Origin: Bolinopsis microptera
Lineage: Eukaryota > Ctenophora > Tentaculata > Lobata > Bolinopsidae
Direction: 5' to 3'
Length of the DNA: 64,000 nt
Assembly: GCF_026151205.1 (NCBI RefSeq)
Contig: NC_087081.1
Coordinates: 15,612,837-15,676,836 of the forward strand
Below are positions 15,731 to 60,204 of this stretch, in pieces. Every line of letters starts with the position of its first letter. The first letter of the stretch is position 1. The notes below the pieces were generated by a model. It searched no databases and was not told the DNA's origin. It saw nothing but the letters and a program-made list of their open reading frames with translations. A program made the position numbers and the translations under genes.

Positions 15731-16913
15731 CTAATGTTCTCGAATGTTCTGGAAAGATTTCATGTACTCAAAGTTTCCAAAAATTTTAGCTAGTCGACGG
15801 AACATCTTCGAACCGTAGATATACTGAATAATGAAGTATTTTTCTACGTTTTGAGGAATCATCATTTCTTCTCGCTCTTCCTCGATCGCCAAAATTATCT
15901 GAAAATGAAATTTATAGTCATCATTCGAATAGAAATAAGTTGTACACTTATATTGCAATCGTAAAACTAAAGGAAAGGGAAAATAAAATTGTTCGTCACT
16001 GACACTGCAGATATCATTCACCTTTGTGTTATAATTATAGAAATGATATTATTATTTATTCTATTAAAATCCTAATCTGTTGATCTTAATCATTTAATTA
16101 TACCAATTAATTATACTGATTATACTAATTATAATTGATTACCTTGCTAGCAGCGTGATCAGGCTCAATTGCTGGAAACATCCTGTTGAGCTTCACCGTA
16201 CAATTGTTAAACATTCCCGTGTTCATAAGATGAGGGAATATGGTGGTAACTTTAACATTAGTGATCCCACAGCAGTCGTGCTCGTACTGCAGACCCCGGC
16301 TGAACCCCACAACGGCGTGTTTTGAGGCCCCGTAGTCTACCATCCGCGGACACGGACCCAGTCCCGCTATGGACGCAACATTCGTGATATGTCCTCCTTT
16401 TTCCAGCATGTCAGGGTAAAACACTTTGGTGAGGTGCATGGGCCCTAGCCCATTGACGTTCATAACTTTGGTATATCTTTCTATGGGGGTCTCTGAGAAA
16501 AGCTTCCCAAAAACTATCCCAGCATTGTTGATGAGGTATTCCAGATGTCCCCCTGCAGCGATGTTTTCATCCACACTTTCCTTTAACTTGGTCACACTAT
16601 CCGGGTCACTCACGTCACATTTGTACACGTGCACCGTGCAATCCTGTCTTGACCCGTATTCTTCTTTCACTTTCTCATTCAACTTATCGTTCACATCCAC
16701 ACAATGAATGGTGTTACCATCTCGTGCTAGCTTTTTCAGAAGTAAGTTCCCGATTCCTTGTCCGGTTCCTGTGATAAGAATGTGGTTGTTTTTTAGCTCC
16801 TTGCGGGGCCTAGAACGAGAGATGAAGTAGAACACTTCGAGAAGAAATGTTGATATTAGCTGAACATGAAAGATGAGAATCTCCAGCCACCAGCTAAAGG
16901 TGCTATTTTCCAT
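15731..16913 (-). CDS. SDR16C-type short-chain dehydrogenase, two exons
   Basis: NAD(P)-dependent oxidoreductase, probably acting on steroid, retinoid or other lipid alcohols at the ER or lipid-droplet membrane (family knowledge). Exon 1 is 16913-16143 (257 codons) and ends AAG|GTAATC. Exon 2 is 15898-15731 (55 codons plus stop), after a TTTTCAG acceptor at 15899-15900. The intron is 244 bp, phase 0, and the total is 312 residues, usual for the family. Visible: an N-terminal hydrophobic anchor (residues ~12-30), the TGTGQGIG cofactor motif at 48-55, CDV near 99-101, NNAG at 129-132, and catalytic Ser181, Tyr194 and Lys198 in YGASK. The exon 2 tail (MMIPQNVEKYF, then LAKIFG) resembles the membrane-proximal C-terminus of 17-beta-HSD11/13 and RDHE2 proteins. 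All key residues are present and the frame is intact. Subfamily assignment is less sure than the fold. Confidence 0.93.
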
Positions 16914-16961
16914 TTTACTTTTCGCTACAGGATATTTGTATGGTTAATCATGTTAAACAAA

Positions 16962-32082: not shown

Positions 32083-32106
32083 CTGAATAGAAATTAATAT
32101 TAACTA

Positions 32107-32350
32107 TAGTGGCACTATCGTGGCACTATCGTGGCACTATCGTGGCACTATCGTGGCACTATCGTGGCACTATCGTGGCACTATCGTGGCACTATCGTGG
32201 CACTATCGTGGCACTATAGTGGCACTATCGTGGCACTATCGTGGCACTATCGTGGCACTATCGTGGCACTATCGTGGCACTATCGTGGCACTATCGTGGC
32301 ACTATCGTGGCACTATCGTGGTACTATCGTGGCACTATCGTGGGACTGTC
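32107..32350. repeat. Minisatellite, 11-bp GTGGCACTATC unit
   Basis: About 22 almost perfect tandem copies of GTGGCACTATC, drifting to GTGGGACTGTC at the right end. The 11-nt period keeps several frames open for 100 or more codons; these are not genes. The same unit is expanded at 33652-34000 and seeded in every copy of the dispersed element. Confidence 0.95.
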
Positions 32351-32456
32351 GTGGTAGATTTAACCTACCGAACATGGAATCCCTTGCTCGGGTGGTACAA
32401 CGCAGTAGAGCCAAGGCTCCGGATCTGCACAGCACAGAAGAATTCATCCTTCCCCC

Positions 32457-33540: not shown

Positions 33541-34215
33541 CTCTTGAGGTGCTTGCTCTTTACTCATACTGAACGTCAATCATAATAATTTCACTTGTTC
33601 CTGTTGGTATCGTGAATTTTTAACTTTGACTAACTTTTGGTCATACATGGCACTGTCGTGGCACAGTCGTGGCACAGTCGTGGCACAGTCGTGGTACAGT
33701 CGTGGCACAGTCGTGGGACTGTCGAGGGACTGTCGTGGGACTGTCGTGGTACTATCGTGGCACTGTCGTGGGACTGTCGTGGTACTGTCGTGGTACTGTC
33801 GTGGCACAGTCGTGGGACTGTCGTCGAACTGTCGTGGGACTGTCGTGGCACAGTCGTGGCACAGTCGTGGGACTGTCGTGGTACTGTCGTGGAACTGTCG
33901 TGGGACTGTCGTGGCACTGTCGTGGGTCTGTCGTGGCACTGTCGTGGCACTGTCGTGGCACTGTCGTGGTACTGTCGTGGCACTGTCGTGGCACTACGAC
34001 GGCACTATGGAGGCACTCTGTCGGCAAAGTGCCAACTTTCAATCATGTTCGTTCAAAAGCCTAAGACAGTAAGACAATCATTATACCTTATTTATTATCT
34101 TTTCACATTAACCAAGTAGTCATAAAAGCATTACCCTTTATTTACTAGCCTTGTCGAAAATTATAAATTGCAACTCTTCAATCAATCGCTCTATCAGCAT
34201 TCCAATTGTGAATTA
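33540..34215 (+). mobile_element. Dispersed minisatellite-bearing element with large expansion
   Basis: Head GAGGTGCTTGCTCTTTACTC, then CTAACTTTTGGTCATACATG. A 350-bp 11-bp-unit minisatellite (33652-34000) follows, then GCCAACTTTCAATCATGTTC, CATTACCCTTTATTTACTAG and CATTCCAATTGTGA. The right half is missing or replaced. Confidence 0.75.
33652..34000. repeat. Minisatellite, 11-bp GTGGCACTGTC unit
   Basis: About 32 copies with variants GTGGCACAGTC, GTGGGACTGTC, GTGGTACTGTC and GTGGAACTGTC. Overlapping open frames on both strands (up to 160 codons) all arise from this unit and encode only 11-residue repeats. Confidence 0.95.
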
Positions 34216-37552: not shown

Positions 37553-40500
37553 AGCCATGTCCGGTTCTAAACATCGAATCTCCCTAATTTTTGGACAGTC
37601 ACCATATTTTAGGGCATTATTGATACCTACCAAGTTTCAGACAAATTGGTCGCTTACTTTCGGAGTGGCACCGATCGCAACTGGCACAAAATATATTCTT
37701 GTGTTTGACTTCATATCTCATCTCCTAGACATAGAAATTTCTTTGAACTTTGCAGGAACACCTTAAAAGGTGTGCTAAGGGTACTGACAAAATTTAAAGA
37801 AAATCGCTCTAGCCAGTTTTGAGCAATAGGCGACTCAATTTGTGGCAAAAATGAATTTTGACTCTGAACATGGCCAAAGTGGCCACATCCTTAATTTGCT
37901 GTTTTTGGCCCATATCTCCGGTTCTAAACATCGAATCTCCCTAATTTTTGGACAGTCACCATATTTTAGGACATTATTGATACCTACCGAGTTTCAGACA
38001 GATTGGTTGCTTACTTTCGGAGTGGCACCGATCGCGATAGGCACAAAATATATTCTTGTGTTTGACTTCATATCTCAGCTCCTAGACATAGAAATTTCTT
38101 TAAACTTTGCAGGAACACCTTAAAAGGTGTGCTAAGGGTACTGACAAAATGTAAAGAAAATCGCCTGATTCAGTTTTGAGCAATGAGCGACTCAATTTGT
38201 GGCAAAAATGAATTTTGACTCTGAACATGGCCAAAGTGGCCACATCCTTAATTTGCTGTTTTTGGCCCATATCTCCGGTTCTAAACATCGAATCTCCCTA
38301 ATTTTTGGACAGTCACCATATTTTAGGACATTATTGATACCTACCGAGTTTCAGACAGATTGGTCGCTTACTTTCGGAGTGGCACCGATCGCGATAGGCA
38401 CAAAATATATTCTTGTGTTTGACTTCATATCTCAGCTCCTAGACATAGAAATTTCTTTAAACTTTGCAGGAACACCTTAAAAGGTGTGCTAAGGGTACTG
38501 ACAAAATTTAAAGAAAATCGCTCGAGCCAGTTTTGAGCAATAAGCGACTCAATTTGTGGCAAAAATGAATTTTGACTCTGAACATGGCCAAAGTGGCCAC
38601 ATCCTTAATTTGCTGTTTTTGGCCCATATCTCCGGTTCTAAACATCGAATCTCCCTAATTTTTGGACAGTCACCATATTTTAGGACATTATTGATACCTA
38701 CCGAGTTTCAGACAGATTGGTCGCTTACTTTCGGAGTGGCACCGATCGCGATAGGCACAAAATATATTCTTGTGTTTGACTTCATATCTCAGCTCCTAGA
38801 CATAGAAATTTCTTTAAACTTTGCAGGAACACCTTAAAAGGTGTGCTAAGGGTACTGACAAAATGTAAAGAAAATCGCTCGAGCCAGTTTTGAGCAATAA
38901 GCGACTCAATTTGTGGCAAAAATGAATTTTGACTCTGAACATGGCCAAAGTGGCCCCATCCTTAATTTGCTGTTTTTCGGCCCATATCTCCAGTTCTAAA
39001 CATCGAATCTCCCTAATTTTTGGACAGTCACCATATTTTAGGGCATTATTGATACTTACCAAGTTTCAGACAAATTGGTCACTTACTTTCGGAGTGGCAC
39101 CGATCGCGAATGGCACAAAATATATTCTTGTGTTTGACTTCATATCTCAGCTCCTAGACATAGAAATTTCTTTAAACTTTGCAGGAACACCTTAAAAGGT
39201 GTGCTTAGGGTACTGACAAAATGTAAAGAAAATCGCCCGATTCAGTTTTGAGCAATGAGCAACTCAATTTGTGGCAAAAATGAATTTTGACTCTGAACAT
39301 GGCCAAAGTGGCCACATCCTTAATTTGCTGTTTTTCGGCCCATATCTCCAGTTCTAAACATCGAATCTCCCTAATTTTTGGACAGTCACCATATTTTAGG
39401 GCATTATTGATACTTACCAAATTTCAGACAAATTGGTCGCTTACTTTCGGAGTGGCACCGATCGCGAATGGCACAAAATATATTGTTGTGTTTGACTTCA
39501 TATCTCAGCTCCTAGACAAAGAAATTTCTTTAAACTTTGCAGGAACATTTTAAAAGGTGTGCTAAGGGTACTGACAAAATTTAAAGAAAATCGCTCGAGC
39601 CAGTTTTGAGCAATAAGCGACTCAATTTGTGGCAAAAATGAATTTTAACTCTGAACATGGCCAAAGTGGCCCCATCCTTAATTTGCTGTTTTTCGGCCCA
39701 TATGTCCAGTTCTAAACATCCAATCTCCCTAATTTTTGGTAAGTCACCATATTTTAGAGCATTATTGATACTTACCAAGTTTCAGACAAATTGGTCGCTT
39801 ACTTTCGGAGTGGCACCGATCGCGATTGGCACAAAATATATTCTTGTGTTTGACTTCATATCTCAGCTCCTAGACGAAGAAATTACTTTAAACTTTGCAG
39901 GAACACCTCAAAAGGTGTGCTAAGGGTACTGACAAAATGTAAAGAAAATCGCTCGAGCCAGTTTTGAGCAATAAGCGACTCAATTTGTGGCAAAAATGAA
40001 TTTTGACTCTGAACATGGCCAAAGTGGCCCCATCCTTAATTTGCTGTTTTTCGGCCCATATCTCCGGTTCTAAACATCGAATCTCCCTAATTTTTGGACA
40101 GTCACCATATTTTAGGGCATTATTGATACTTACCAAGTTTCAGACAAATTGGTCGCTTACTTTCGGAGTGGCACCGATCGCGATTGGCACAAAATATATT
40201 CTTGTGTTTGACTTCATATCTCAGCTCCTAGACGAAGAAATTTCTTTAAACTTTGCAGGAACACCTTAAAAGGTGTGCTAAGGGTACTGACAGAATGTAA
40301 AGAAAATTGCTCGAGCCAGTTTTGAGCAATAAGCGGCTCAATTTGTGACAAAAATGAATTTTGACTCTGAACATGGCCAAAGTGGCCACATCCTTAATTT
40401 GCTGTTTTTCGGCCCATATCTCCGGTTCTAAACATCGAATCTCCCTAATTTTTCAACAGTCACCATATTTTAGGGCATTATTGATACTTACCAAATTTCA

Positions 40501-42143
40501 GACAAATTGGTCGCTTACTTTCGGAGTGGCACCGATCGCGATTGGCACAAAATATATTCTTGTGTTTGACTTCATATCTCAGCTCCTAGACATAGAAATT
40601 TCTTTAAACTTTGCAGGAACACCTTAAAAGGTGTGCTTAGGGTACTGACAAAATGTAAAGAAAATCGCCTGATTCAGTTTTGAGCAATGAGCGACTCAAT
40701 TTGTGGCAAAAATGAATTTTGACTCTGAACATGGCCAAAGTGGCCACATCCTTAATTTGCTGTTTTTCGGCCCATATGTCCAGTTCTAAACATCCAATCT
40801 CCCTAATTTTTGGTAAGTCACCATATTTTAGAGCATTATTGATACTTACCAAGTTTCAGACAAATTGGTCGCTTACTTTCGGAGTGGCACCGATCGCGAT
40901 TGGCACAAAATATATTCTTGTGTTTGACTTCATATCTCAGCTCCTAGACAAAGAAATTTCTTTAAACTTTGCAGGAACACCTTAAAAGGTGTGTTAAGGG
41001 TACTGACAAAATGTAAAGAAAATCGCTCGAGCCAGTTTTGAGCAATAAGCGACTCAATTTGTTGCAAAAATGAATTTTGACTCTGAACATGGCCAATTAG
41101 TGGCCCCATCCTTAATTTGCTGTTTTTCGGCCCATATCTCCCGTTCTAAACATCGAATCTCCCTAATTTTTGGACAGTCACCATATTTTAGGGCATTATT
41201 GATACTTACCAAGTTTCAAACAAATTGGTCACTTACTTTCGGAGTGGCACCGATCGCGATTGGCACAAAATATATTCTTGTGTTTGACTTCATATCTCAG
41301 CTCCTAGACGTAGAAATGTCTTTAAACTTTGCAGGAACACCTTAAAAGGTGTGCTAAGGGTACTGACAAAATTTTTAAAAATCGCTCGAGCCAGTTTTGA
41401 GCAATAAGCGACTCAATTTGTGGCAAAAATAAATTTTGACTCTGAACATGGCCAAAGTGGCCCCATCCTTAATTTGCTGTTTTTCGGCCCATATCTCCGG
41501 TTCTAAATATCGAATCTCCCTAATTTTTGGACAGTCACCATATTTTAGGGCATTATTGATACTTACCAAGTTTCAGACAAATTGGTTGCTTACTTTCGGA
41601 GTGGCACCGATCGCGATTGGCACAAAATATATTCTTGTGTTTGACTTCATATCTCAGCTCCTAGACATAGAAATTTCTTTAAACTTTGCAGGAACACCTT
41701 AAAAGGTGTGCTAAGGGTACTGACAAAATTTAAAGAAAATCGCTTGAGCTAGTTTTGAGCAATAAGCGACTCAATTTGTGGCAAAAATGAATTTTGACTC
41801 TGAACATGGCAAAGTGGCCCCATCCTTAATTTGCTGTTTTTGGCCCATATCACCGGTTCTAAACATCGAATCTCCCTAATTTTTGGACAGTCACCATATT
41901 TTAGGGCATTATTGATACTTACCAAGTTTCAGACAAATTGGTCGCTTACTTTCGGAGTGGCACCGATCGCGAATGGCACAAAATATATTCTTGTGTTTGA
42001 CTTCATATGTCAGCTCCTAGACATTGAAATTTCTTTAAACTTTGCAAGAACGCCTTAAAAGGTGTGCTTAGGGTACTGACAAAATTTAAAGAAAATCGCT
42101 CGTGCCAGTTTTAAGCAATAAGCGACTCAATTTGTGGCAAATT
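37553..42143. repeat. Satellite array, ~357-358 bp unit, about 13 copies
   Basis: Monomer landmarks in order: CATATCTCCGGTTCTAAACA, CTCCCTAATTTTTGGACAGT, GGAGTGGCACCGATCGCGAT, TTCTTGTGTTTGACTTCATA, ACACCTTAAAAGGTGTG (a 7-bp-arm palindrome), CAGTTTTGAGCAATAAGCGA and GAATTTTGACTCTGAACATG. Units 37842, 38199 and 38556 are nearly identical and exactly 357 bp (119 codons) apart; later units are mostly 358 bp and more diverged. Each monomer leaves an 88-93 codon plus frame and a 60-80 codon minus frame open, but there are stops between units and no start, splice or family evidence, so I do not call them genes. Confidence 0.95.
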
Positions 42144-43499: not shown

Positions 43500-44500
43500 A
43501 CTTACGTCATCGTCATACCAATCCAGATTCTAGAACAACTAAACATTGCACGTGAGACTTGTTATTGCGATGTGATTAGTATACCTCAAGTAATACCTCA
43601 AGTAATACCTCAAGTAAAACCTCAATTATACCTCAAGTAATACCTCAAGTAATACCTCAAGTAATACCTCAAGTAATACCTCAAGTAATACCTCAAGTAT
43701 TACCTCAAGTAATACCTCAAGTAATACCTCAAGTAATACCTCAAGTAATACCTCAAGTAATACCTCAAGTAATACCTCAAGTAATACTTCAAGTAATACC
43801 TCAAGTAATACCTCAAGTAATACCTCAAGTTATACCTACCTCAAGTAATACCTACCTAAAGTAATACCTACCTCAAGTAATACCTCAAGTAATACCTCAA
43901 GTAATACCTCAAGTAATACCTCAAGTTATACCTCAAGTAATACCTCAAGTAATACCTCAATTAATACCTCAAGTAATACCTCAAGTAATACCTCAAGTAA
44001 TACCTCAAGTAATACTTCAAGTAATACCTCAAGTAATACCTCAAGTAATACCTCAAGTAATACCTCAAGTTATACCTCAAGTAATACCTCAAGTTATACC
44101 TACCTCAAGTAATACCTACCTAAAGTAATACCTACCTCAAGTAATACCTCAAGTAATACCTCAAGTAATACCTCAAGTAATACCTCAAGTTATACCTCAA
44201 GTAATACCTCAAGTAATACCTCAATTAATACCTCAAGTAATACCTCAAGTAATACCTCAAGTAATACCTCAAGTAATACTTCAAGTAATACCTCAAGTAA
44301 TACCTCAAGTAATACTTCAAGTAATACCTCAAGTGTATTCTGCATGAATGTTATCACAAAGCCCAAAGGCTGAGCATGTGACACGTTTCCAGATCACAAT
44401 TGGAATGCTGATATAGCGATTGATTGTTGACTCATGTTACTCGTATAAATTTCTTCGAAGTAGCGCTAGTAAATAAAGGGTATAATGCTTTTATGCACTG
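43500..44500 (-). mobile_element. Dispersed element, inverted copy carrying 12-bp minisatellite
   Basis: On minus the order is GCATTATACCCTTTATTTAC, CAATTGTGATCTGGAAACGT, GATAACATTCATGCAGAATA, then the minisatellite, then CGCAATAACAAGTCTCACGT and AATCTGGATTGGTATGACGA. These are the same interior landmarks as at 30-31 kb. The minisatellite sits exactly where other copies have GGATACATTAAGGTATAGCA. Confidence 0.75.
43585..44332. repeat. Minisatellite, 12-bp AATACCTCAAGT unit
   Basis: About 60 copies of a 12-bp unit. A variant block with TACCTACCTCAAGT and CCTACCTAAAGT occurs twice, 264 bp (22 units) apart at 43831 and 44095, showing a higher-order duplication. The LLEVLLEV-type minus frame through it is repeat-derived. 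Confidence 0.95.
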
Positions 44501-44549
44501 GGAGACTTTGGGACCGGAAACTGATTCGGCCCCCAAAGAGGGGTCGATC

Positions 44550-44569
44550 ACGTCACCAATCAGTGACGT
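44550..44569. promoter_or_regulatory. Candidate CRE/CCAAT promoter element
   Basis: ACGTCA-CCAATCAG-TGACGT: two inverted CRE half sites flank a CCAAT box, about 65 bp upstream of the geminin-like start codon. CCAAT and CRE boxes are common in cell-cycle promoters (family knowledge); the link to this gene is inference from position. Confidence 0.4.
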
Positions 44570-44634
44570 ACAATTGCATTTTCAATATCCAGCTGTAAGA
44601 TTAATATATCCCTATATATCCCAATAGTCCAATT

Positions 44635-45105
44635 ATGAGCAATTCATCAGAAGTAAGTTGTGGTACATCGGATAATGCTGCTGAGGAAATGATTTCTGCC
44701 TTGACTGGTGGACCGTTAAATGAGACTTATTTTGAAGGCTTAGCTGAACAGCGCAGAGAGGCTTTGGAAATTGCCATAGAAGAAAATGAAAAACTATATC
44801 GTAAGTGGACACTATTTACTGCTCATTTTTTGATATTTCGTCTTAAAACGATAGTGTTGCTGCTTGATAAAACTTTAAATTAAATTCTAATAGATCTGTG
44901 TGGCAGTTATATCATGAGTTTACTATAAGAAGATAAGAGTATAAGAATGATTTCATAAGCACCTTCTATTTTAGTCGTATGATTGTTAATAATATTAATG
45001 ATTGTTCTTTCAGAAAAGATAGAAGAGCTGAATATATTACTGACAGCAGCTACCAAACGTGCTGAAGAGGCCGAACGCCAAGTTCAACTCATTGTTGAAA
45101 AGTGA
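44635..45105 (+). CDS. Small geminin-family coiled-coil protein, two exons
   Basis: Exon 1 is 44635-44800 (55 codons plus one base, donor TATC|GTAAGT). Exon 2 is 45014-45105 (acceptor TTCTTTCAG, stop TGA). The intron is 213 bp, phase 1, and the product 85 residues. Residues ~32-55 read YFEGLAEQRREALEIAIEEN then EKLY, and continue into exon 2 as QKIEELNILLTAATKRAEEA. This Y-xxx-AE-x-RR-x-AL...ENEKL...IE pattern is the geminin/MCIDAS/GEMC1 coiled coil, which mediates dimerisation and, in geminin, binding of the licensing factor CDT1. It is far shorter than typical geminin (~200 residues). The N-terminal part has no RxxL destruction box or basic region, and the coil ends early. No upstream coding exon was found. 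It could be a minimal paralogue, a truncated retained copy, or lack a 5' exon. Confidence 0.82.
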
Positions 45106-45178
45106 AAATATTGAAATTAGTGACAATTTTTATAAAAATTAGTTCATTATACGTGTAATGTAATTTGACCATAACCCA

Positions 45179-45562
45179 TTTCATTCTCGGTATCAATTTG
45201 CATTTGCGGACGGTTCCTCGAATTAATATCATGTCCTTTTATTTGGAAAAGAGAGACAGTGGCAGTGGTTCACTCTACCCATGATTATGGGTTTTGGTCA
45301 AATATCATCTCTTTTTGATTATAATGTCAGAATAATTTACACAGTCGAAACTTCATTAATAAGGAGGTAATTTCATTCTCGGTATCAATTTGCATTTGCG
45401 GACGGTTCCTCGAATTAATATCATGTCCTTTTATTTGGAAAAGAGAGACAGTGGCAGTGGTTCACTCTACCCATGATTATGGGTTTTGGTCAAATATCAT
45501 CTCTTTTTGATTATAATGTCAGAATAATTTACACAGTCGAAACTTCATTAATAAGGAGGTAA
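45179..45562. repeat. Identical 192-bp tandem duplication
   Basis: 45179-45370 is repeated as 45371-45562 with no difference I could see, starting 74 bp after the geminin-like stop codon. Either a very recent duplication or an assembly artefact. Confidence 0.9.
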
Positions 45563-46467
45563 TTTCAACGTTTTCGAAATTTTACCTTTGAAAACGTTTC
45601 CTTGTGTTAAGGTAGGCATATCTGTCGATAACAGACTGAATATGGCACTTTTTACTCATTCAAGTTGGCATTAAATTCCTATATAATGCCATTTAAATAT
45701 CGTGGGAAAGCAGAATATATTCGAAACCACGAATGAGCAAAATTCTCACCTTTCGCACGTGCAAACTTTGAGCGGACGTTGCGTGCGCATAAAATATTGA
45801 ATCACCATAAATTTTTGCATAGTGTTATTTTATATATAGTTTAATAAGCATGCAAAGAGATTTCAACAAGAACTTGGATCACAACGGGACTCCAAAGTTG
45901 ATAAAAATTGTGAAAATAACAATTTTAAGTGATTTTAGCAATTTTAAATCAATTTGGGCGTGTCCCCACGTGTGCAACTTTTCTATTTTCAACTTTAAAA
46001 CTAGCCTATAACACAATTTAGACCTTTAGAAAGCAGAACTGAGCTCCACAACCCAAGGCATGGCCCAACACCAAAGAATACTAATTCACAACTTTTGTGT
46101 TTTTATAAAATTATTCTCCAAAAAAGCACTAACTTCAATAGCGAACATCTTTATGAAGGAGTAAGGTAGGAAAACTTTCCGGTAGATTTTCACAATGCTT
46201 GAACAATTATCTAAGGTATAAATGTCCTCAGATTTTGAATAAAATTGCTTCTTAATGGTGTAAAATCGATTTGAAAAGTTGTTATTTTGTCAAAAATCAA
46301 GTTTTCAAAACACCTAATTTGATGACGTCATCAAGTGTTGATGATGACGTTAAATTATTTTTTAATATAGTGTAAACAGAAGTGTAAACAATTATCTTTA
46401 AAACCTGTGGTTCGGGATTACTGTATCTTTTATACTTTTGAATTTACGGACACCTGCAGATCTCTGA
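45563..46467. other. Intergenic, nothing recognised
   Basis: AT-rich sequence without a recognisable exon or repeat landmark. Confidence 0.45.
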
Positions 46468-47810: not shown

Positions 47811-49922
47811 CTAGGAGCTAGAAGTGAGGTGACGGGGTAATCGGTTCTCAAACAAGTAGTCAAGTGTACTGATCATGTCAAACTTCTCCTGAAATCCATG
47901 TTTTTCAGCTATTCGTCGGAATTTGTTACTCAACAGCTTCCTATCAAAACCTAATTTAATAAACGCGTTTAACATCAGTTCAACCCGTTTCCTAAAACTT
48001 TCAAACTGATTACAAATTCTAAAAAATCTGACTAGTTGCGACCCAAAAACTCCAATAAGTACATCTCTGGACATATTACTACATTTAGGGGCATATTGGA
48101 CTATATTAAAAGGGAAATCGTCCCGTTTATCATAAACTTCTACAATAAAATAACCTTCAACTATAGAGATATTCAAATCTAGGACATGAGCACTAGTGTC
48201 CTCGGTGTTCTCCTTATTAAGAGTTAAACTATCAGGATAAATATTGGCTACATGCTCCTGGAAGACACCATCAGAATTAATAGTAGTAATGTCATCAATT
48301 AACCTAAACGTGTTATTAAGTCTCTTAGCGCTATAATAATCAATCCTATAGAGTTTATCTAAATATTTATACTCATAATAAAAAAGTGTAAGATTAGCAA
48401 TAAAGGGTCCTGGGTTTACCCCAATAGGGACACCAATAATCTGTCTAAAAGTCATATTCCCCATGCTAAAATATGAATTATCTAAAATAAAATCAATAGT
48501 ATTAATAAGAGTATCCACGTTAAAACGGAAGGTGTTTTCACGTGGATTCTTGACCCATGCAAAACCACTTTCATATATTGAAATATACGGACACTTACTG
48601 TGTTTAAAGGCTAAATTAACGACATCTTTAAGAGCTACTTTGATCTCATCATGTCTGAGATTAGTGTACAAAGTCGAAAAGTCATAGGTTTGGACATTAC
48701 GAGCCCTATCAGACTCCATATAGCTATTAAAACAATCTAAAATAGGCGCATTATTGTCGATAATCCAATTACGCTTAATCCCAGTCACTTTAAACAGCAT
48801 GCGTGAATAACTACAAATTTGACTGTAGACAGCTTTAAGTCCAAGAGTAAGGCGCTGTGCAATTGGTTTAACTGTACAGCAAGCGTAAGACACTACAAAC
48901 CGCTGAGAAAACTTGGGTTTATGGAATTTAGGGAAAAGTACTATATGGGGTAAAACATCGTCCTTATTCGTATCATCAATATTTAACACATCCTTCATAA
49001 AAGTTTTCTGTATCTTACAAATCTCCTGGGTATTGGATTCCGTGATATGAGAATATGAAATAGAATTAGTCATACATTCATTCAAAATGGTATCTAAATA
49101 AAAACGTTTACAAATTATAGCGACATTTTTCGATGCCTTGTCCACGGGACAAATAACAAAATATTTATGAAAATATTCCAGCTCCGCTTCAACAAATGGG
49201 TCAGAAAAGACCGAAACCACATCACTGCTACGTTTATATCGCTTTTTTAAACAATCAACGGCATCAGTTAGTAATTCTCGGAATTTCTCCTTCCACCCAT
49301 CAAAGCAGACTAAAGCTACTTTCTCCTTTTCACTCCAACTCTTAACAAACTTATCTAAATTCTCTAAAATAGTACGTTGAGCAAAATTAAAATCTAGAAC
49401 TGCGGGTTCCTTGAAACTAGGCCCTTTAGAAATAATATTCCTTAGCATTTGATTACTAATAATAGAAACATCCCCTGTAGCGACATGATTACAATCGCCG
49501 TTAATATATTCCTCATGCTTATTACATATACAATCATAATCTTCAATACACTTAAAATCGTTAACCGTATCATTATAATTAAATAATTTACTAGATATTT
49601 TAGGCGTGTTAGTGAATACAACTGAAGGTTCATTAATATTACATTGGCTAATATAGGACTTTAAAGATTTATCCCTGAAAATTCTGGGTAAATTTATCAT
49701 ATCAATAGCCTTATTAACAAATTTAACTTTAAACATGAATTTCTGTTTCTTTTTAGAAACTTTAGGGCATTTCCATACATTAAACGGCTTAATTTTATAC
49801 ATTAAAAGATCTGTAATCACAAAATGGGCATGTCTGCGTAGAATATCATGCTTCAAAACATTATCATTAAAAACATTATCTAAATATAATTCTCTGACTT
49901 TATTCAGTTTATCACGTTTCAA
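47811..49922 (-). CDS. Intact Penelope-like reverse transcriptase, 703 aa
   Basis: Uninterrupted ORF of a retroelement polymerase that would copy element RNA into DNA. Landmarks: a Cys-rich CICNKHEEYINGDC (131-144), then HVATGDVSII and KGPSFKEP (166-173), which resemble the conserved N-terminal core of Penelope-like RTs; CPVDKASKNVAIICKR (258-273, finger region); motif A YDFSTLYTNL with Asp414; motif-B-like GVPIGVNPGPFIANL (497-511); motif C RLIDDIT with Asp543-Asp544; LDLNI and YDKRDDFPFNIV in the thumb region. No GIY-YIG endonuclease follows motif C or is fused in front, so it may be an endonuclease-deficient type or use an enzyme in trans. The full frame suggests recent activity. A TIR element lies 55 bp upstream of its start and related direct repeats flank the region. 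Clade placement is by motif only. Confidence 0.85.
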   Translation of the reverse strand: MKRDKLNKVRELYLDNVFNDNVLKHDILRRHAHFVITDLLMYKIKPFNVWKCPKVSKKKQKFMFKVKFVNKAIDMINLPRIFRDKSLKSYISQCNINEPSVVFTNTPKISSKLFNYNDTVNDFKCIEDYDCICNKHEEYINGDCNHVATGDVSIISNQMLRNIISKGPSFKEPAVLDFNFAQRTILENLDKFVKSWSEKEKVALVCFDGWKEKFRELLTDAVDCLKKRYKRSSDVVSVFSDPFVEAELEYFHKYFVICPVDKASKNVAIICKRFYLDTILNECMTNSISYSHITESNTQEICKIQKTFMKDVLNIDDTNKDDVLPHIVLFPKFHKPKFSQRFVVSYACCTVKPIAQRLTLGLKAVYSQICSYSRMLFKVTGIKRNWIIDNNAPILDCFNSYMESDRARNVQTYDFSTLYTNLRHDEIKVALKDVVNLAFKHSKCPYISIYESGFAWVKNPRENTFRFNVDTLINTIDFILDNSYFSMGNMTFRQIIGVPIGVNPGPFIANLTLFYYEYKYLDKLYRIDYYSAKRLNNTFRLIDDITTINSDGVFQEHVANIYPDSLTLNKENTEDTSAHVLDLNISIVEGYFIVEVYDKRDDFPFNIVQYAPKCSNMSRDVLIGVFGSQLVRFFRICNQFESFRKRVELMLNAFIKLGFDRKLLSNKFRRIAEKHGFQEKFDMISTLDYLFENRLPRHLTSSS

Positions 49923-49977
49923 AGGGAATAAAATACGTTTAGTTTTAGTAATACATGATGTATGAAAAGGTTCATTA

Positions 49978-51241
49978 CGGGTAAATGCCTCACAGAATGG
50001 CTAGCCTCACAGAATGGCCAAATTTGTAAATGTTTTTGTAACTTATTTTTCATAAAAGACTGGTAGGTTTTGTGGATACCATATGAAACAAAAGTCTTCT
50101 GGCAACACTTCCTGTGGTGAAATCATTAACTAGGACCACATTTTCTGGCATAAATATGACTGTTTATGTAGAAATTTTGAGCACTGAAAAATTTGTTTTC
50201 AAATTTTTGAACTAAGTTTACATTTTGGTGAGAACTTCTGGCACCAGTATGACAGAAGATGTTCAAAGAATAGTATTCATCAAACAAAACGAACATTGTT
50301 CAATATAGGAAGAAAAAAATGCCAAAATGGCTACACGCCTCACAAAATGGCCAAAATATGCCTCACAAAATTTGTTTTCAAATTTTTGAACTAAGTTTGC
50401 ATTTTGGTGAGAACTTCTGGCACCAGTATGACAGAAGATGTTTAAAGAATAGTATTCATCAAACAAAACGAACATTGTTCAATTTAGGAAGAAACAAAAT
50501 GTTAAAATGGCTAAACGCCTCACAAAATGGCCAAAATATGCCTCACAAAATGGCCAAAATTTAAAACTCCTTTTATTCAATGAAACCATAAGTCTAAAGT
50601 ATTCACAAGCTATTTATCATACAATAACACCCCAGATGGAGTGTTTTTACAGCCGAATGAAGGTTATAAATCATGAAATCAGGGAATATGAACAACGCCA
50701 CACAAAATGGCCATTTTTGGTGTAGGAAATTATGCCCTTTTTATTCAGTTCTAAGAAATTTCACCTATATGGGGGTGTTGACAAGGCATATTAATACCAG
50801 CAGCATGCCTGAAACAAGAGCCAAAGGTTTTAGAAAAATAAAATTTTCTCGTTTTCTTCTTTTTTTTGCCATTTTGTCAGGCATTTTTTCTTTTTTGTGA
50901 AATAATTTTTCACAGCTCAGTTTTTTCGTGAGTTTTAGGTTATTACCCCATTCCTTAATAGGTTTTCTAAGAACGTGTGGTGATAGAAATTTAAAAAGTA
51001 TCTCCATCAACAAAATTATAGAAATTCAGATTTGGCCATTCTGTGAGGCATGTTTTTTTGGAGGAAGATTTTCCGGCCAATTTTTCTCAAAGAAAAAATG
51101 GTTATGAGATTAAATGAACCCCCGGGAAGAAAAATATGAGTGTCAACTTAGCTTCTTATGAGATAAAAACTGGAATAAAGTGTGTTTTGTGACTTTGAGA
51201 GACCTTCCTTTTTTTTGGCCATTCTGTGAGGCAAATACCCG
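49978..51241. mobile_element. Non-autonomous TIR transposon with subterminal repeats
   Basis: Left end CGGGTAAATGCCTCACAGAA, right end (complement) CGGGTATTTGCCTCACAGAA: about 24-bp inverted ends with two mismatches. TA dinucleotides at 49976-49977 and 51242-51243 fit a TA target duplication as in Tc1/mariner-type elements. The motif CCTCACAGAATGGC/CCTCACAAAATGGCC recurs at least eight times inside. Includes a ~179-bp tandem duplication. No transposase frame. Confidence 0.75.
50190..50547. repeat. ~179-bp tandem duplication inside the TIR element
   Basis: 50190-50368 and 50369-50547 share TTTGAACTAAGTTTRCATTT, GAGAACTTCTGGCACCAGTA and ATTCATCAAACAAAACGAAC, each ending in CCTCACAAAATGGCC motifs. 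Open frames here are repeat-derived. Confidence 0.8.
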
Positions 51242-53120: not shown

Positions 53121-56100
53121 ATGAAGTTAATAACATTGGTGTTGATCACCTTACTGGGTACTGTCTCCTGTCAAAGTACTCAAACAACCTGCAAGACATG
53201 CGCAAATATGGACTGGTCCGACTCAACGATGTTCCAAAATGGGATTAAATATGAAGATTGGGATCCGAGTGTGATGCCCGATGAACATAAAAATGTTGAA
53301 GGATTCGGTAAGTGTTAAGCAAAGTTGTGAGCAAAAGAAGCTGTATGCCTAGATTAGGGCATACGTAGTACTAGTAAATTTGCTAGCTTGGATTGGTCAC
53401 AAATCGACAATTATTAAATCGATCATACTTCACAAAAAGGGTAAAGGCCGAAATATTGCAATTTATAATGTTAACCCATTACTCAATGTGAGTAGTAATA
53501 TAAATAAGTGAATTGTCAACTGAAAACTCGAACATTATGTGATATATCCTATTTATGGGACATATCACATATTATGTCTTGTTAAACATCAAAATTACGA
53601 ATAATATGATCTGGATCGTTGACTTGAATTCTTTTCAAGTTTTCACAGATCTTGATATAAAACCGCAAACTTTCAGATTCCTGTGTGAATCAGGAATGAC
53701 TCAATGCGGATCTATTCACTGGGAAATGAGGTAAATATTCATACAATACAGGAACTAATTTCACAATAACTGCTCAGGACTATCATTGTGGATTCGTGAT
53801 ATGTATTGGACTGAAACAAAATATAAGGCTTGCTTGATAATTTTCATGCACATGTTAAGAAATCATAAAAAAATAAAACGTTTGTAAGCTGCACGAATTT
53901 TAAACTTCGACCAACTTAAAATAACGATTATTAGCGAAGCTCAAACTATCAATTAAATTCAAAATATGCGACTAAAAATTACACTATTTTCTTAGTGTGA
54001 AGAACGAAGAAGGTGGAACTGTAACTACCTTTGAAAGGGTAAAAATAAGCATGCTTGGCTGTTTGCCGATGGACTCGATGGCCACGTGCGACACATACAT
54101 GCCTCATTTCGTTGTTCCTGAGGGCGGAAAGAATTCAAACTGTGAGTTTGTATTGAAATACATTATTACCTTTATTAACATCATTAGTACCTCATTAGTA
54201 CCTCATTAGTACCTCGTTAGCCTCATTATTACCGAGCCTAGTTATAACTAAAACCCCTTTATAACCTTTAACGCGGTTTTTTGGTATAATTTATTTCTTC
54301 CCTCGACGCACATTATAGCAAAGTCCTTCGGTAGAGTATTGTACATATTTTTGCAAATTTTTGAAAAGTCGTCTTTTCCTTCGTATTCATTCTTATATCC
54401 CTCATTTTTACCTGAATACTTAAAACATGTTTTCAGGTGTGATAGAAAAATGCGATGAACCATTGGTTGACAATTGTGTAGAACATGATAGATCGGATAA
54501 GGAATATGTATATAAGAAAGACGACGATAAAGACGATGAGAAAGATGAAGAGCCAATCACGAGTTGTCCACACTGTGGGGAAGTGGACTTCTCTTCTGCT
54601 ACATTTTACGATGGTGAAGGAACTGAACAGCAAATGCCTGAAGTAGATGTTGAGTGGAAAAAAGTCACTGGATATGGTAAGCCGTGAATTTATCAAACGC
54701 TACTCCCTGAAACAAATTAGATTATCCAGTTGTCACATATTTGATATTTGTTATTGCTACAAACCATGACGGTATGTAATTTCAGCACTTTGTTCCGGCA
54801 GCGATACCGTAGAACCAAAAGAGTGCGTTGCTTCAGGTTGGAGACCGAATGTATGCGCCAGATTTCACTTCACAATGGGGTAAGATCTTGAAACTCATAT
54901 TAAGCTAATAAAGTGATAAGGTAATAAGGAGAATTTATTTAAAAAAGTGTATCAATATGTTGAAATTTGGTGTTGGCATTTTACCAACTAAAATCCGATA
55001 AGTAGAGGTAAGTAAAGGTAAATCCATTAAATATATATAAATATATTTATCCAGTAAAGGTATAAATCATTAAAGTCATTTTGTCATCATTAAAGTCATT
55101 TTGTCTCAGAATTAAAGGAGAAGACACAAACGGAGATAAATACGCGTTTGAAGGAACAAAATTAGAAATTAGGGATTGCTTGCCTGAAGGAACTACCTGT
55201 GCGGACGTTACTGCAAAAATTGAGAATATCGCGAAGGAAGGCGGCATGGATTTCACTTATTCAGACTGTAAGTTGATTAAAATGTAAGCTTTTTAATGTC
55301 ATAACTGTCAATAACACCTTCCACAATGCATTTTTAGGTAGTATTTTTAAGTAGCAGATCGGCACTCGGCACTTGGTATATCAAACACAATTCTTCCGTG
55401 GACTAAAAATTCCCATCTCAGGCGAACTAGAAATATGCGACCGTGACGGAGAGAATTGTAAGGTACAGGACGATTCTCCTAAAGCAGGAGAGTGCCATTT
55501 CCCTGATCTCATTTGGGGTGGGTACAAAGTCTTGGAGGGTGAGCACGAAGGAGAAAAGTATGCCATGTACATGTGTCACCCACCCTTTGTAATGACACCA
55601 AACAGGCATTCCTTCAAGGGATACATGGATGCTTACAGCAAAACTCCCAGTGAAGCATACATGGACATGGCCTACACTGCTGGCTGTTATGAAGGATATG
55701 CATATGTTCCAGAATGCATGGAACCCATTGAAGGAGGCCATTGTGGTATTCCTATTTACATTGAGAACGGCCATGCAGTTGAAGTTATGATGAAAGATGA
55801 TGAAGACAAATGGGACAAAATGGACGAAGATAAAGAAGGAGATAAACCCAGTCCCAATGCGTTTGCATTTAAGTTTAACATGGATGTCGACTCAGGCTCT
55901 CAAGGCTCTGAGTACATGGAAGATGAGAGTAAGATGAGTGAAGAAGAGTGGAAGTTCATGTCAATGATGCCAAGGGGAGCTAGATACGAGTGTGACGCTG
56001 ACTATGTGATGCACCATACCGTCAAGAAGGACTGGGGCTGGTGTCGACCAGACGGTTCTTTTGAGGTACCCCGATGTGAGCACAAGGACACCTTTTACAA

Positions 56101-57224
56101 TTTAGAGTTCAGGCTCAATAGTGGAGGTGAGAAAAAACTAGCTGGAAACGGCGGGATTGTTCAAGCTAGGATGATAATGGAAAATGGAGATGTAGGAGAT
56201 TGGGAGTACGCCTGTAACGATGGTTTTAATGACAATGCAGCCGGAGCTATTTGCAGAACTCTCGGATTTAAGACTGGAGCTAAAATACCCTCTTCCAAAA
56301 AGATGGATATGAGTTTGGATTCGATGAGTAATGGTGGTTTTGGATGGACACACTTCAGTTGTGATCACGACGACACACTTCCACAAAGGTAATTGTGTCT
56401 ATAATAGTGCTTAACTAGACTTACTTCTTCATTATAAACTATGTATAGTAGGCTTAATGGATGAATTATAACAGCACACACCACATATAACCGTGAAGAA
56501 TTGTTTAAAACAATCGGAGAAGTAACAAAATGAACCATTCAAAATTACAAATAAAACAATTTATAAAATTTCAGTATGGGTTGTCGGGCAATAAAATACG
56601 AAGAAGTTAAACAGTCGAAGGAACATGCAATGAAATGGCACTGCTTTGATTTTGAAAAAATGGCAGTGAGATGTTTCGACCACAGAATGTTCAACGTGGA
56701 AGTGGATTTGGAAATGTCTAAGAGGAGGGCCACATGTGGTGTTCAGGTGAGTTGGAGGGTTCATTAACAAAACACAGAATACTTGGTTCATGCGCACTTT
56801 ACGCACCTTTAAAACACAACACACTTTTCCTGAAAAATTTACGAACGAACCAACTTATATGGAACACAGTGCAATGCTGTATGAATTTAAACTGTTTGAT
56901 TTTAACCAAATACAATTATTACATTCTTGTAATTTAATCTGCAGGACACGGGACAGCTCCAAATTAAAAATCAACTAATTTCAGGCACAGAAAAAAGAAG
57001 TCCACATGCAACTGAACCATCTGGGCGAAGAAGTAAGTGTGACGTGGATGTTGGACGATGTGGAGACAGAGTTACCCACCAAATCCAACAAAAGGAGAGG
57101 ATTCATGGTCAGGGGTAAAGATCTCAACAATAAGGATTTTAAGTGCATAGGATGCCAGATTCATATGGGAAGAGACAAGGTCTTGTTAGGAGAAGCCAAG
57201 GTCTGCGAGGAGGACTCCGACTAG
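53121..57224 (+). CDS. Secreted SRCR/CCP multidomain protein, nine exons
   Basis: Exons 53121-53307, 53649-53730, 53996-54141, 54437-54676, 54786-54879, 55110-55267, 55422-56388, 56575-56746, 56985-57224; all GT-AG, frames continuous, 761 residues. Residues 1-17 are a signal peptide (MKLITLVLITLLGTVSC). Exons 1-3 and 4-6 encode two copies of one Cys-rich module: CKTCANMDWS...EGFG against CPHCGEVDFS...TGYG, then GCLP..ATC against DCLPEGTTC. Their splice phases match (1, 2, 1). Exon 7 starts a third similar segment (CELEICDRDGENC) and encodes two CCP/sushi-like modules (Cys327-Cys401, and Cys410-Cys521 with a long acidic insert; C-RPDGSFEVPRC). Exons 7-8 give an SRCR domain (~530-660; CNDGFNDNAAGAICRTLGF, Cys567, 580, 616, 628, 648, 658). 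The C-terminal ~100 residues may be Ig-like. Such proteins act outside the cell in adhesion or immune recognition (family knowledge). Confidence 0.88.
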
Positions 57225-60104: not shown

Positions 60105-60204
60105 NNNNNNNNNNNNNNNNNNNNNNNNNNNNNNNNNNNNNNNNNNNNNNNNNNNNNNNNNNNNNNNNNNNNNNNNNNNNNNNNNNNNNNNNNNNNNNNN
60201 NNNN
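60105..60204. other. Assembly gap (100 N)
   Basis: Exactly 100 N, a common placeholder for a gap of unknown size. It lies between two repeat-rich segments. Confidence 0.98.

Follow-up and report, generated by a model that had tools for sequence, protein, structure and literature searches.

An 85-residue geminin-family frame on the forward strand of the 64,000-nucleotide stretch of Bolinopsis microptera DNA analyzed here (hereafter, the window) is, judging from sequence, almost certainly a DNA-level copy of part of a full-length geminin gene on another contig, intron included, rather than a stand-alone short member of the family. The original prediction had read it as a short geminin relative; descent from geminin stands, and the independent short gene does not, since the frame is a partial duplicate of the geminin on contig C11. 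The features of the locus and its flanks are as follows (window coordinates; window GC content 37.6%):

43581-44334, no strand assigned: 12-bp ATACCTCAAGTA tandem array, upstream.
44496-44575, plus strand: 5' end of an interspersed repeat (starting CACTGGGAGACTTTGGGACC), 88-96% identical to at least 39 further places, distributed over one small contig and 12 of the 13 large ones.
44550-44569, no strand assigned: CRE-CCAAT-CRE palindrome ACGTCAC-CAATCA-GTGACGT, part of the interspersed repeat, 65 bp before the ATG.
44635-44800, plus strand: first exon of the geminin copy; its initial 12 nt, which include the ATG, belong to the new site, and from 44647 on it matches the second half of parental exon 1.
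44647-45108 (end approximate), plus strand: duplicated segment, colinear with C11:1188391-1188645 and C11:1191117-1191304 (blastn identity 91.0% and 80.7%).
44801-45013, plus strand: intron of the geminin copy, at the position of parental intron 1, without the parental 2.47-kb inverted-repeat element.
45014-45105, plus strand: exon 2 of the geminin copy; its stop TGA stands against parental TCA, where the parent reads on, and 6 bp in frame are absent from the parent.
45174-45700, no strand assigned: high-copy downstream element with inverted ends, starting at about 45174 and reaching at least the end of the searched stretch.

The frame opens with an ATG at 44635, its first exon running to 44800 and its second spanning 45014-45105 including the TGA stop (45103-45105). 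Splicing, predicted from the splice signals and from the parent gene, would remove a 213-bp GT...AG intron (donor GTAAGT, acceptor TTTCAG) and leave an 85-aa translation. The two-exon model proposed in the original prediction holds at these coordinates, and the profile check suggested there placed the translation in Pfam Geminin (PF07412; hmmscan E = 1.9e-6; score 28.2 bits, cut-off 22.2), with the runner-up family at 14.5 bits, under its own cut-off. PDB geminins 2zxx, 1uii, 4bry, and 2wvr were the top phmmer matches (E = 1.5e-4 to 3.3e-3), and the next chain followed at E = 1.2. Like geminin (GMNN), the product has the YxxxxAExRRxAL...ENEKL signature, the coil core residues, and the stretch before the coil; unlike geminin, it is a partial duplicate of 85 aa beside a full-length gene. 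The predicted lack of a destruction box was borne out, as a motif scan of the 85-aa copy found neither a KEN box nor an N-terminal APC/C degron (D-box), and its sole RxxL is a REAL within the coil that parental geminin also has. By its profile match and by common descent, read from colinear DNA homology that includes the intron, the 85-aa frame is a member of the geminin family.

The genome searches covered 264,652,675 bases in 232 contigs, including thirteen large contigs (C1-C13), with the window lying in C10 and the copy at C10:15657471-15657941. RNA-seq and Iso-Seq reads both went into the annotation of the B. microptera assembly (PMC10232365). A protein search with the copy found one other locus, with exon 1 89% identical and exon 2 downstream (four of four candidates scored), and a DNA search with the copy returned only itself and two pieces of the parental gene. 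A full-length geminin, whose presence elsewhere in the genome had been proposed as a check, lies at C11:1188220-1191528 (exons C11:1188220-1188544, 1191216-1191325, and 1191442-1191528) and is the only one found by these searches. Its translation, read from the DNA, is 173 aa long, which confirms that the product in the window, at 85 aa, is below half the normal length. The parental protein starts MSDNANKENV...SRAPLTTITN, with, by motif, a KEN box at residue 7 and an RxxLxxxxN D-box (RAPLTTITN) at residue 15. Searching the genome with the 173-aa parent gave its own three exons, the two exons of the copy, and two further matches at E > 2. By protein and DNA search, copy and parent were the only loci matching with E below 1, with the exon boundary placed alike. 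A PF07412 profile search of the whole genome gave no match, nor did any of its 14 controls, though the protein search found both genes; the empty profile result therefore carries no weight. A Cdt1-like gene is represented on C1 by three overlapping or neighboring matches (C1:21136032-21137547), two of them stop-free.

Homology of the coil also connects the copy with Idas/MCIDAS and GEMC1, which can pair with geminin in vertebrates. MCIDAS and GEMC1 carry a C-terminal TIRT domain that binds E2F4/5-DP1; unlike them, the 85-aa frame ends with the coil and, by reading, has no room for such a domain. Because the DNA of the copy is 91% identical over 267 bases to the geminin of the same genome, the copy is not an MCIDAS/GEMC1 orthologue. 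Genome searches with an MCIDAS coil query, which misses even geminin, and with a TIRT-like query, run with no positive control, gave no match. In the accessible part of one report, a glass sponge yielded neither Mcidas nor GEMC1, and ctenophores are noted to have multiciliated cells (PMC10280926).

Homology between copy and parent begins in the middle of parental exon 1 (44647) and stops within exon 2 (about 45108), and the breaks are sharp. The parental KEN box and D-box, both outside the duplicated piece, are missing from the copy, as is the C-terminal tail. The new site contributes residues 1-4 of the 85-aa frame, residues 5-46 are identical to parental geminin, and the stop lies at the edge of homology. 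Retention of the intron points to a DNA-level copy, and a retrocopy origin was rejected on that ground. We infer that a geminin piece of about 460 bp, with its intron, was copied at the DNA level into repeat-rich DNA of another contig, where a local ATG would supply the start and the homology edge the stop codon. A possible target-site duplication surrounds the inserted piece (by eye). Parental intron 1 contains an element of ~2.47 kb (L005/L006, C11:1188646-1191117) whose inverted ends are identical over the 59 bases compared and whose flanks show, by eye, a duplicated TA; in the window copy the corresponding site is empty. Most simply read, the element entered the parental intron after the duplication.

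It is very improbable that the window holds a normal geminin whose other exons were missed. One assembly was read, and upstream exons unlike those of the parent are conceivable, but a tblastn search of the entire window with the full-length parent returned the two exons and four other matches, all with E of at least 0.89, and found no remaining geminin exons. In the genome search, the N-terminus and the last exon of the parent had matches at C11 alone, and the sole N-run in the window lies at 60105-60204.

The DNA upstream of the frame has a separate history. A CRE-CCAAT-CRE palindrome had been noted ~65 bp upstream; the palindrome exists, and a regulatory role specific to this gene is not supported, because it lies within an interspersed repeat (best 40 of 181 candidates scored, 40 of 40 matched, the window included). 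Among 25 other repeat copies aligned (L008-L012, L019-L038), 20 keep the palindrome with one middle base free, and all 25 begin CACTGGG(N)GACTTTGGG, with upstream flanks that mostly differ. An upstream flank common to L022-L024, and one common to L010 and L011, indicate that the insertions are not all independent. On its 5' side the repeat ends sharply, and its 3' ends vary, two of them (L026, L030) by eye carrying short tandem tails like those of retroposons. Neither TGACGT nor ACGTCA occurs in the 520 bp upstream of parental geminin, and the pattern used for E2F-like sites found none at either geminin gene. From these alignments the palindrome most likely arrived as part of the repeat. It might nonetheless serve as a promoter, but it says nothing about geminin regulation; a geminin-specific promoter was rejected, the palindrome belonging to a dispersed repeat. 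The high-copy element downstream of the frame includes a perfect 192-bp tandem pair at 45178-45567 (best 40 of 1817 candidates scored).

Further repeats in the window include a 358-bp tandem satellite at 37560-42141 (12.8 copies, 96% matches) and two arrays of 11-bp units at 32103-32354 and 33648-33995 (ACTATCGTGGC / TGGCACTGTCG), the latter with long repetitive open frames on both strands. Other open frames are a 729-aa frame on the minus strand at 47811-50000, with no Pfam match at E <= 0.1 and with reverse-transcriptase-like blocks (GVPIG..., IDDI) by eye; a plus-strand frame at 55355-56392 that contains an SRCR-like domain at 22.8 bits, short of the curated cut-off (26.1); and a short-chain dehydrogenase frame on the minus strand at 16125-16943 (adh_short, 141.9 bits). 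Rfam and tRNA searches of the window gave no matches.

We compared the predicted product with human geminin in a register that pairs residue i of the copy with human residue i+66 along the coil; S96, R106, and I124 (PMC3814758, accessible part) served as its anchors, and heptad counting set the rest. The geminin heptad core (R106, L110, N117, L120, I124) is present as R40, L44, N51, L54, and I58, and the further human core residues A103 and A113 are kept as A37 and A47. The copy has Leu at the equivalent of human 131 and Ala at that of 134, and ends at 151; core positions d3 and d6 are Thr in the parent and Ala in the copy. What it retains by counting, the coil and the stretch that precedes it (about human 71-151), has boundaries similar to those of the human peptide Gem76-145 (PMC12695944, accessible part). 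Unlike that laboratory construct, the ctenophore product is predicted and has Leu, Ala, and Ala at d5, d6, and a7 where the human protein has Lys, Leu, and Asn.

Studies of vertebrate geminin delimit what such a piece could do. Of the protein, PMC4488664 calls nothing but the coil and the sequence immediately preceding it necessary. In the accessible part of PMC12695944, the minimal Cdt1 binder is human Gem96-135; Gem76-145 and Gem82-145 inhibit MCM loading, leaving 25% and 30% of loading, respectively, against 11% with the full protein, and also inhibit DNA synthesis in Xenopus extract, while Gem96-145 binds Cdt1 without inhibition. The coil had been described as cut short. Some shortening is present, but it is mild, since the coil reaches the equivalent of human 151 and the parental coil is scarcely longer by eye; functional truncation was not borne out, as the length exceeds both the Cdt1-binding (96-135) and the inhibitory (76-145) human peptides.

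With residues 5-46 identical to the parent, the copy carries, without the degrons, whatever surface the parent may present to Cdt1 there. If translated, it should, by analogy with the human peptides, be a degron-free Cdt1 inhibitor. The retained module would correspond to the part sufficient in human geminin to inhibit Cdt1-dependent MCM loading, with the KEN box, D-box, and C-terminal tail absent. If transcribed and translated, a degradation-resistant dimer, or a heterodimer with full-length geminin, would bind Cdt1 and, as its most likely action, block licensing outside the normal geminin window; such a block could be tolerated only if the level were low or the cells did not divide. We consider transcription and translation of the copy somewhat less likely than not. 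Several residues speak against inhibition. At the equivalent of human L134 the copy has Ala; the parent has Thr there, so copy and parent need not differ in this respect. In the human protein, the I131A/L134A double change left about 40% inhibition, where about 85% had been seen before (PMC12695944, accessible part). The YWK site of vertebrates, at which the AWA mutant binds Cdt1 and loses inhibition (PMC4488664), is YFE in both ctenophore proteins. The stretch before the coil is only weakly similar to human residues 82-90 (aligned by eye), so that its equivalence rests on parental identity.

The suggestion that a minimal dimer might act as a dominant partner of full-length relatives is altered by these comparisons, for the module that remains points no less strongly to a licensing inhibitor that resists degradation. 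A copy that pairs with full-length geminin and lowers its activity, as Idas does in vertebrates, seems improbable. The coil core is present, the Ala residues in place of parental Thr at d3 and d6 would make mixed dimers plausible, and the Idas-Geminin heterodimer offers a precedent (PMC3814758, accessible part); against this, the copy matches the parent exactly ahead of the coil and through the first heptads, so a mixed dimer should still bind Cdt1.

Divergence from the parent bears on whether the copy has been selected at all. Differences number 5 of 154 bases in exon 1 (P = 0.10 at 0.06 per site), 9 of 86 plus one 6-bp gap in exon 2, and 27 of 194 plus three gaps in the intron, where the alignment is ambiguous in its second half (three gaps by script, four by eye). 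Over 79 codons, pairwise Nei-Gojobori comparison gave 6.0 synonymous and 8.0 non-synonymous differences (dS 0.124, dN 0.045, ratio 0.36). Under a model of a neutral copy and a constrained parent, the probability of no more non-synonymous differences than observed was 0.04-0.46 over six settings, and 49-61% of copies were stop-free. The simulations started from the parental sequence (dN/dS model) or from either sequence (profile test), the ancestor being unknown. The copy scored 26.7 bits on the Geminin profile and the matching parental piece 22.8. Of 20 simulated neutral descendants with an open frame, ten started from each of the two sequences, one reached 26.7 bits (at 28.7 bits, among those started from the copy; none started from the parental piece did), and one had no Geminin match at all. 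A47 and K53 of the copy agree with vertebrate geminin at positions where the parent differs. The profile fit is a weak hint that the copy is constrained or that little has changed along its branch, but gene conversion or an intron that evolves quickly could give the same pattern. A dN/dS of 0.36 is compatible with neutral drift. Of the points against drift in these sequence comparisons (the profile fit, A47 and K53, and the low divergence of exon 1 relative to the intron), none is decisive by itself.

We rank drift as likelier than function, which is a live alternative: the copy is probably an intact but drifting fragment with no selected function yet. A dead fragment, the outcome that the original prediction had named as refuting it, is still plausible. 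That the copy is instead a functional degron-free mini-geminin, transcribed at its new site, selected, and acting in certain cells as a long-lived inhibitor of Cdt1, we consider unlikely. Its frame is open, the donor and acceptor are kept, the only coding indel is in frame, the family fit is above the parent's, and the equivalent of the human inhibitory peptide is retained; yet neutral drift stands unrejected, Ala occupies the 134 equivalent, and the nearest AATAAA, at 46238, lies more than 1.1 kb past the stop (TATAAA occurs at 45131 and ATTAAA at 45670). Moreover, degron-free geminin is expected to be harmful in cycling cells, from work on D-box mutants, which counts against a functional mini-geminin. 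A naturally expressed, degron-free mini-geminin, trimmed by a chance duplication to about the human inhibitory peptide and acting as a constitutive licensing block in a ctenophore, for example to keep differentiated cells from entering S phase, is slightly less probable again.

Duplication of geminin between chromosomes has a parallel in the Z-linked copies of Lepidoptera, described in the accessible part of PMC10658929 as gene movements with expression data; that part describes no degron-free partial copy. The open-access literature searched, as far as its texts were accessible, yielded no study of a ctenophore geminin and, preprints being outside its scope, no natural degron-free partial geminin copy.

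On the analogy with the human peptides, the 85-aa frame is best filed as a partial geminin duplicate with latent inhibitory capacity. Licensing control depends on the destruction of geminin once per cycle. If the copy is expressed, a geminin without destruction signals would amount to a standing experiment on such a protein in an animal. If it is not expressed, the locus would illustrate how a repeat-rich genome makes gene fragments that resemble mini-genes, and that promoter-like motifs near them can be repeat-borne.
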